The notes under the pieces: model-generated
Database searches by the model: none
What the model was told of the DNA's origin: nothing
What the model saw: the letters and a program-made list of their open reading frames with translations, nothing else
Assembly (NCBI GenBank): GCA_021845665.1
Contig: JAJZVO010000024.1
Span: 1 to 56,850 of the forward strand
Direction of reading: 5' to 3'
DNA from: Bacteroidota bacterium
GTDB lineage: Bacteria > Bacteroidota > Ignavibacteria > Kryptoniales > JAKASW01
Length of the DNA: 56,850 bases
Shown here: piece by piece, positions 17,561 to 42,981 of the stretch
Layout: every line of letters begins with the position of its first letter
Position numbering within the stretch: position 1 is the first letter of the stretch
Program-made: the position numbers and the translations under genes

Positions 17561-17604
17561 CCTTTCGAAGGTAGCAGAGCCCCTTCTGAGCTACCTTCGA
17601 AAGG
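17561..17604. terminator. Perfect 15-bp inverted repeat between convergent genes
   Basis: CCTTTCGAAGGTAGC (17561-17575) and its exact complement GCTACCTTCGAAAGG (17590-17604) around a 14-nt loop, centred between the ends of the GH125 gene and the minus-strand BNR gene. It probably serves as a bidirectional terminator, though neither side has a clear T tract. Confidence 0.6.
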
Positions 17605-35138: not shown

Positions 35139-35161
35139 TATTAGCGGAGACTGTCCCCAAA

Positions 35162-35189
35162 GCAGCCACCCGATGAATCGGACGGCTGC
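35162..35189 (+). terminator. Long hairpin after the tyrosine phenol-lyase gene
   Basis: GCAGCC (35162-35167), AC, CCGAT, GA loop, ATCGG, AC, GGCTGC (to 35189): an 11-bp stem interrupted by a symmetric AC/AC internal loop. No T tract follows, so it may be a stabiliser or a Rho-type end. Confidence 0.45.
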
Positions 35190-35299
35190 CAGCCTTACAT
35201 CCCGATAAATTGTACCCAACTTACCGGGACGCGGGTTGATGCGCCGATTCTATTCGATGTCCTTTTGAGACAGCCCCTGCCAGACTGAAGCAGCACTTG

Positions 35300-42240: not shown

Positions 42241-42263
42241 GATATTTCCAATGATCATTCGAT

Positions 42264-42406
42264 GTAACCGCTCAGTTATGGGGCTATCGACCCTACGGCA
42301 TTCATTAAAATGAACGCCCGGCAATTGCGCGAAACCGCAAAGCGGTTTTGTTCACAACAGCCGTTCGTTTCAACGAATGGCGCGGAAACGGTAACTGAGC
42401 GGTTAC
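42264..42406. mobile_element. 143-bp IS66-type MITE with 8-bp target duplication
   Basis: Terminal inverted repeats are 15 bp and exact: GTAACCGCTCAGTTA (42264-42278) and TAACTGAGCGGTTAC (42392-42406). They begin with GTAA, as IS66-family ends do. The flanks are an exact 8-bp direct repeat, CATTCGAT at 42256-42263 and 42407-42414, which is the IS66 target duplication length. The interior has further palindromes (AAACCGC-aaa-GCGGTTT, TTCGTT-tc-AACGAA) and no coding frame, so it is non-autonomous. It sits just upstream of the BrnT promoter. The transposase source is not in this window. Confidence 0.88.
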
Positions 42407-42425
42407 CATTCGATTCCTGGTATGG

Positions 42426-42454
42426 TTGAACGGCCATATGCGAGTATGTATATT
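42426..42454 (+). promoter_or_regulatory. Promoter of the brnTA operon
   Basis: TTGAAC (42426-42431), exactly 17 bp, TATATT (42449-42454). Transcription would begin near 42461, 16 nt before the BrnT ATG. It starts 11 bp beyond the MITE target duplication. BrnA normally represses its own promoter, so an operator is expected here. Confidence 0.65.
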
Positions 42455-42476
42455 GAAACGTCTGATCGAGAGAGAA

Positions 42477-42773
42477 ATGTCTGCTCCAAAGACCACCTTT
42501 GAGTGGGATCAAGACAAGAACGAGAAAAATCAAAGGAAGCACGATTTGTCCTTTGAGGTGGCTCAATATGCCTTTGCCGATCCGCACAGAGTTATAGCGT
42601 CAGACCAGGAACACAGCGAGAGGGAAGAAAGGTTCTATTGTTTTGGGAAGGTTGGTGAAGACATAGTCACCGTTCGGTTTACGTACCGAAGCGAAAAGAT
42701 AAGAATTATCGGCGCAGGATATTGGAGGAAAGGAAAACAAATTTATGAGAAAGAAAACAAAATACACGAATGA
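42477..42773 (+). CDS. brnT: BrnT-family ribonuclease toxin
   Basis: 98 residues from ATG 42477 with GAGAG upstream; starts further 5' would lie inside the promoter. The family pattern is clear: FEWDQDKNEKNQRKHDLSFEVAQYAFADPHRV, then REERFYCFGKVGEDIVTVRFTYRSEKIRIIGA. BrnT has a RelE-like fold and cleaves RNA, arresting growth unless bound by BrnA. The downstream antitoxin overlaps by 29 bases, the usual toxin-first order of this system. All the core residues I can recall seem present, so it is presumably active. Confidence 0.93.
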   Translation: MSAPKTTFEWDQDKNEKNQRKHDLSFEVAQYAFADPHRVIASDQEHSEREERFYCFGKVGEDIVTVRFTYRSEKIRIIGAGYWRKGKQIYEKENKIHE

Positions 42774-42981
42774 AGAGATCGGCAAGATCGAAGTTGTCGA
42801 AGACTTCTTACCAAGACCTGAAGACCTTGCGTTCAAAGAACAGAACGTGAAGGTTACCCTAAATCTCAGCAAGGCCAGCGTTGAATTCTTCAAGAGGATA
42901 GCAAAAGATCATGGGAGCCAGTATCAGAAGGTAATCAGAGAACTCTTGGATACGTATTCTTCGCATTTTTCGTCCAAATGA
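42745..42981 (+). CDS. brnA: BrnA-family antitoxin
   Basis: 78 residues overlapping the end of brnT. An N-terminal arm (MRKKTKYTNEEIGKIEVVEDFLPRP) should wrap the toxin, and the C-terminal part VKVTLNLSKASVEFFKRIAKDHGSQYQKVIRELLDTY is a ribbon-helix-helix DNA-binding domain. The complex neutralises BrnT and represses the operon. The next gene begins 94 bases downstream. Confidence 0.9.
   Translation: MRKKTKYTNEEIGKIEVVEDFLPRPEDLAFKEQNVKVTLNLSKASVEFFKRIAKDHGSQYQKVIRELLDTYSSHFSSK

Follow-up and report, generated by a model that had tools for sequence, protein, structure and literature searches.

The window, by which is meant the whole stretch of 56,850 nucleotides that was analysed, comes from an assembly of 4.64 Mb in 135 contigs, and among the named relatives of its OPT transporter, those from Bacteroidetes/Kryptoniota metagenome assemblies are the closest. 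It contains a toxin-antitoxin pair, brnTA. The brnT gene (42477-42773, plus strand; Pfam BrnT_toxin, E = 1e-23) encodes a type II toxin and overlaps a BrnA/CopG-like antitoxin partner (42745-42981, plus strand), the Pfam match of which is weak and falls below the cut-offs. A promoter-like site, TTGAAC-17-TATATT (42426-42454, plus strand), precedes the pair, and an imperfect palindrome (ATGG..CCAT, 42420-42441) in the promoter, which recurs at two related loci (L060 and L059), is a candidate antitoxin operator.

Upstream of these genes, and separate from them, is a MITE of 143 bp (42264-42406). It is bounded by perfect 15-bp terminal inverted repeats (TIRs), GTAACCGCTCAGTTA on the left (42264-42278, plus strand) and TAACTGAGCGGTTAC on the right (42392-42406, minus strand), which are 100% complementary. 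The unit is flanked by two copies of an 8-bp target duplication (TSD), CATTCGAT, at 42256-42263 and 42407-42414, and the right copy ends 11 nt before the promoter-like site. A preliminary description of this DNA had reported GTAA-type inverted ends with an exact 8-bp duplication, a palindromic interior without a coding frame, and an insertion 11 bp upstream of the brnTA promoter; the coordinates proved exact, and the remaining points also held. The strand folds far better than shuffled versions of itself (z = -5.9; none of 200 equal), and an open reading frame overlapping the element, of 103 amino acids on the minus strand (42276-42587), continues antisense through brnT, with nothing to support its status as a gene. 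The element is thus short, lacks a transposase gene and carries terminal inverted repeats, as MITEs do. The preliminary description had added that the insertion may affect the brnTA operon; neither an outward promoter nor an intrinsic terminator was detected in a sequence scan of the element.

Among perfect 12- or 15-bp inverted pairs lying within 400 bp of each other in the window, only the pair at 42264-42406 is flanked by an exact 8-bp duplication; 100 Markov control windows yielded six 15-bp inverted pairs, none of them so flanked. The only other perfect 15-bp pair within this distance in the window lies at 17561-17604.

IS66 partners and related copies

The full 143-bp unit occurs once in its own genome. 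Its 12-bp end has 19 exact occurrences there, two of which belong to the window MITE, while the remaining 17 terminate longer elements and for the most part lie near contig ends. The ends of the longer elements are of two kinds, GTAACCGCTCAGTTACAGGG and GTAACCGCTCAGTTACGGTG; the IS66 copies of the genome have 16-bp identical ends, GTAACCGCTCAGTTAC, in common with the window MITE, the left TIR of which is identical to theirs. Five pairs of unlike (left and right) IS66 ends on different contigs have an exact 8-bp flank in common, against an expectation of 0.001. Four of the five lie at contig breaks, the pattern expected of full IS66 copies that have 8-bp duplications and collapsed in the assembly. 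The fifth (C113:8729 and C68:60551) lies inside contigs, where the element is cut short and adjoins unrelated DNA, which suggests a rearranged or misassembled copy. Two fragments matching DDE_Tnp_IS66 above the Pfam cut-off are found in the genome, and one of them, a frame on contig C23 (E = 3e-7), ends at the inverted repeat. From the ends, the flank pairs and the C23 frame together, it follows that IS66-family transposons with the ends of the window MITE are present in its own genome. They are assembled as terminal fragments only, the copies collapsing at contig ends, and no complete transposase gene is among them. The contig ends that mark collapsed copies through exact 8-bp flanks in common (C8/C26, C53/C43, C130/C107 and C130/C55) could serve to join the assembly.

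Relatives of the MITE are found in a congener (G012), where 14 copies, some of them partial, are 73-87% identical to it. In an end-to-end alignment, an average of 4.4 of the 8 positions match between their flanks, compared with 2.35 after reshuffling, and none of 20,000 reshufflings scored as high. For one right end (L047) the score uses the aligned position; a shift to its TIR would make the duplication exact. The duplication is therefore exact in the window and significant in the congener family. A search of this congener, the genome of which is 84% complete, gave no match to an IS66 transposase, and its copies look like relics with decayed duplications. The window copy, judging by its perfect ends and duplication, looks recent, and together with the IS66 copies it marks recent mobility beside a toxin-antitoxin promoter.

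These same-ended IS66 copies, the exact flank pairs and the 14 relatives support an IS66-dependent MITE. The contrary view, that a chance palindrome happens to sit within a chance duplication, can appeal to the lack of anything beyond a single full copy in the genome itself; it is refuted by the related copies, with the IS66 partner and the duplication statistics also against it, and its probability is negligible. The preliminary description had assigned the element to the IS66 type, and had named as grounds for abandoning that assignment a lack of other copies and of any IS66 element with these ends; both were found. It had also suggested a search for empty sites, and no exact empty-site allele was found. 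The OPT-brnT regions of eight relatives lack the element and have no IS66 ends, and at one of these loci (L060) brnTA and its promoter-like site are conserved from window position 42419 onwards, without the element. The stretch upstream has diverged there, and a single CATTCGAT cannot be read in the diverged flanks.

The REPIN-like interior

The interior of the element, which the preliminary description had treated as palindromic only, is a separate mobile repeat common to unrelated shells. It consists of a first REP-like palindrome, GGCATTCATTAAAATGAACGCC (42297-42318), a central hairpin, AAACCGC-AAA-GCGGTTT (42332-42348), and a second, inverted REP-like palindrome, GCCGTTCGTTTCAACGAATGGC (42360-42381). 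A BLAST search with the MITE unit also matches short palindromic stretches elsewhere in its own genome, and one such stretch, used as a query, returned an 87-nt module in 11 of the 13 genomes of the genus; the model of this module finds it in all 13. Within a sample of the class, it was met in only two genera beyond this one. A covariance model (R2) was built from an alignment (A2) of 11 modules, all of which lie outside IS66-, DUF6788- and IS200-type shells. The alignment contains three helices, in which 94.6% of the cells are paired and nine pairs show double changes, and none of 500 shuffles reached the covariation score of the stems. R2 recognises the complete core at 42297-42381 on the minus strand (65.4 bits, E = 4.6e-14), and the hairpin at 42332-42348 aligns to its central stem. 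Because a model built without copies from those shells finds these positions, the window core is, on sequence comparison, a homologue of the dispersed REPIN-like repeat and not a piece of IS66.

Two inverted palindromes with a short spacer, repeated through the genome, are one mark of a REPIN, and here they come with covarying helices in 13 of 13 genomes. No GTAG/CGTC tag stands at the hairpin foot, which reads mostly CATC/TATC in the 9-bp shell described below, often CATC around Y1 genes, and CCGC/CTAC in the window core. Seven modules surround a gene for a Y1 (IS200-like, HUH) transposase in one congener (G006:C16) and three do so in another (G007:C70). These two proteins share 61% identity, no other match in the genus exceeds 42%, and the window's own genome holds no close relative. 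Against NCBIfam, the module-flanked protein scores 87 bits with the IS200 profile (cut-off 55) and 22 bits with the RAYT profile (cut-off 80). The name 'REPIN-like' is used on account of the missing tags and of a Y1 protein that matches the IS200 and not the RAYT profile.

Other identities for the core were considered. A CGTC-tagged REP was rejected, the CGTC letters lying within the stem and not forming an unpaired tag, and integron attC sites, suggested by the tandem modules of G006, were rejected because the modules surround a Y1 transposase gene and sit in TSD-bearing shells. The core has no match in Rfam at E values up to 1, and the exact palindrome pattern has none in viral contigs.

An alternative account takes the element for an ordinary IS66 MITE that arose through internal deletion, its interior being leftover IS66 sequence or chance sequence with no identity of its own. 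The ends, the TSD and the IS66 copies of the genome would suffice for such an origin. The R2 match to the window core disfavours it, however, as does the occurrence of the interior as a module without IS66 ends in every one of the 13 genus genomes and within other shells. The first 190-260 bp assembled from both kinds of IS66 end also lack the module, and we regard this account as improbable. A second alternative holds that the core is functional cargo under selection, such as a structured RNA, a terminator or a protein-binding site, and that shells carrying it persist better. Strong covariation in all three hairpins and the presence of the central hairpin in every shell speak for it, but the lack of an Rfam match and of an intrinsic terminator in the scan speaks against it, and the tandem arrangement of copies about a Y1 transposase gene suits a REP-type repeat better. 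On balance it seems unlikely, though less so than the deletion account.

The window element is very probably a composite MITE, with IS66 ends outside and a REPIN-like core inside, moved by IS66 transposase in trans. The outer 25-33 bp on each side carry IS66-family transposon ends, and the inner 85 bp are a REPIN-like palindromic unit. Given this anatomy and the partner elements, IS66 transposase from other copies in the same genome most likely recognises the GTAACCGCTCAGTTA ends in trans and would insert the composite unit, generating the 8-bp duplication. We infer that a minimal IS66 derivative probably acquired the core by insertion or capture of a repeat dependent on Y1 transposase. The single MITE copy in its own genome, the want of a complete assembled IS66 transposase gene and the lack of an exact empty allele count against this composite view.

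Shells sharing the core

The core also occurs inside shells of other kinds. One of them, with GGGTSTGCGACAAATTTGT ends, generates 9-bp TSDs: in 15 complete cases the flanks match at 7.8 of 9 positions (null 2.7), many of them exactly, and longer elements with the same ends encode a DUF6788 protein. In the window's own genome, the core is shared by a family of 148-bp MITEs that have 9-bp duplications and number about 20 copies (for example C51:108339-108484); the partner IS of this family carries the gene for a DUF6788 protein. Another, IS200-type shell (class C) places the core inside hairpin ends, CCCACTGCC..GGCAGTGG and GCCACCGGC..GCCGGTGGTAGTTCAC, and an intact IS200 transposase gene lies between the same ends in a congener (G011). 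In a further genome (G005), a version of the core has GTAAGGGCTCAGTTA ends and is flanked by AAGACAGG/ATGACAGG. A fourth shell (class D), with GAGGCTGTCC-type ends, is likely; no transposase or TSD was tied to these ends. The central hairpin is found in every shell, and in the window's own genome no close pair of IS66-type or 9-bp-type ends was found besides those that hold the core.

The window itself contains a second, weaker REPIN-like core (35165-35261, plus strand; 23.4 bits, E = 5e-4) between GAGACTGTCC-type sequences, which is assigned to class D tentatively. The surrounding stretch (35146-35281), in which this core lies between GGAGACTGTCCCC and GAGACAGCCCC, is probably a degraded class D shell. 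At another locus (L145, G010:C53, near position 1501), a TGTCATTCTGAAG...CATGACAG repeat dimer appears to be inserted in a copy of the REPIN-like module, from which it would follow that repeats nest in the reverse direction too.

Instead of the repeat inserting again and again, one or two recombination events between mobile elements might have brought the core into the different shells. Exchange is feasible between cores that are about 75-80% alike from shell to shell, and the YATC foot is kept by the 9-bp shell and by none of the others. Shell ends and chemistries (8-bp TSD, 9-bp TSD and IS200 hairpins) are nevertheless unrelated, and stem and loop types differ between shells, so that recombination seems rather doubtful, if a stronger contender than selected cargo. 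For the genus as a whole, we put forward, as a tentative idea with somewhat better prospects than recombination, that the REPIN-like unit is a promiscuous core, recurrently forming the interior of minimal shells from at least three, and probably four, unrelated transposase families, and that it survives without its own Y1 transposase, once that is lost, by moving with foreign ones. The origin of MITEs and the filling of their interiors are poorly known, and the shells of unrelated transposases that have this core in common form a natural series in which to ask whether REP-type repeats seed non-autonomous transposons or hitchhike in them. The same series bears on why REP dimers elsewhere lie inside larger palindromes.

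Relation to known systems

A limited open-access literature search found no paper on one REP-type core in the shells of several IS families, and the parts of the element each have known counterparts. IS66-family ISs and their non-autonomous derivatives are alike in GTAA ends, 8-bp duplication and an IS66 transposase domain by the same end, whereas the window element measures only 143 bp, has no coding capacity and takes its interior from another repeat family. Non-autonomous hairpin-ended elements derived from IS200/IS605 resemble the class C shell, the ends of which are those of the intact G011 IS200 copy; that shell differs from the one in the window.

REPINs, or REP doublets, were described by Bertels and Rainey in 2011 (PMC3116915), and TnpA-REP (RAYT) or class 3 Y1 transposases are known, as are Y1 classes that have atypical repeated hairpins on their flanks (PMC6006769). 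As in REPINs, two inverted imperfect palindromes with a spacer are dispersed through the genome, and here they cluster around a Y1 HUH gene in two genomes. Unlike REPINs, the core lacks a GTAG/CGTC tag, the flanked Y1 protein is of the IS200 and not the RAYT type, and the window copy lies inside IS66 ends.

That REP dimers can lie within longer palindromes is already known, and the window element is a variant of such an arrangement. In GTAG-15 of A. variabilis and CGTC-1 of H. neapolitanus, a REP dimer is likewise centred in a larger inverted repeat (PMC3733652). In the part of that source drawn on here, their outer palindromes are not tied to a named IS family, a target duplication or several unrelated shells, whereas the outer palindrome in the window consists of IS66 ends, bears an exact 8-bp duplication and encloses a core that recurs in other shells.
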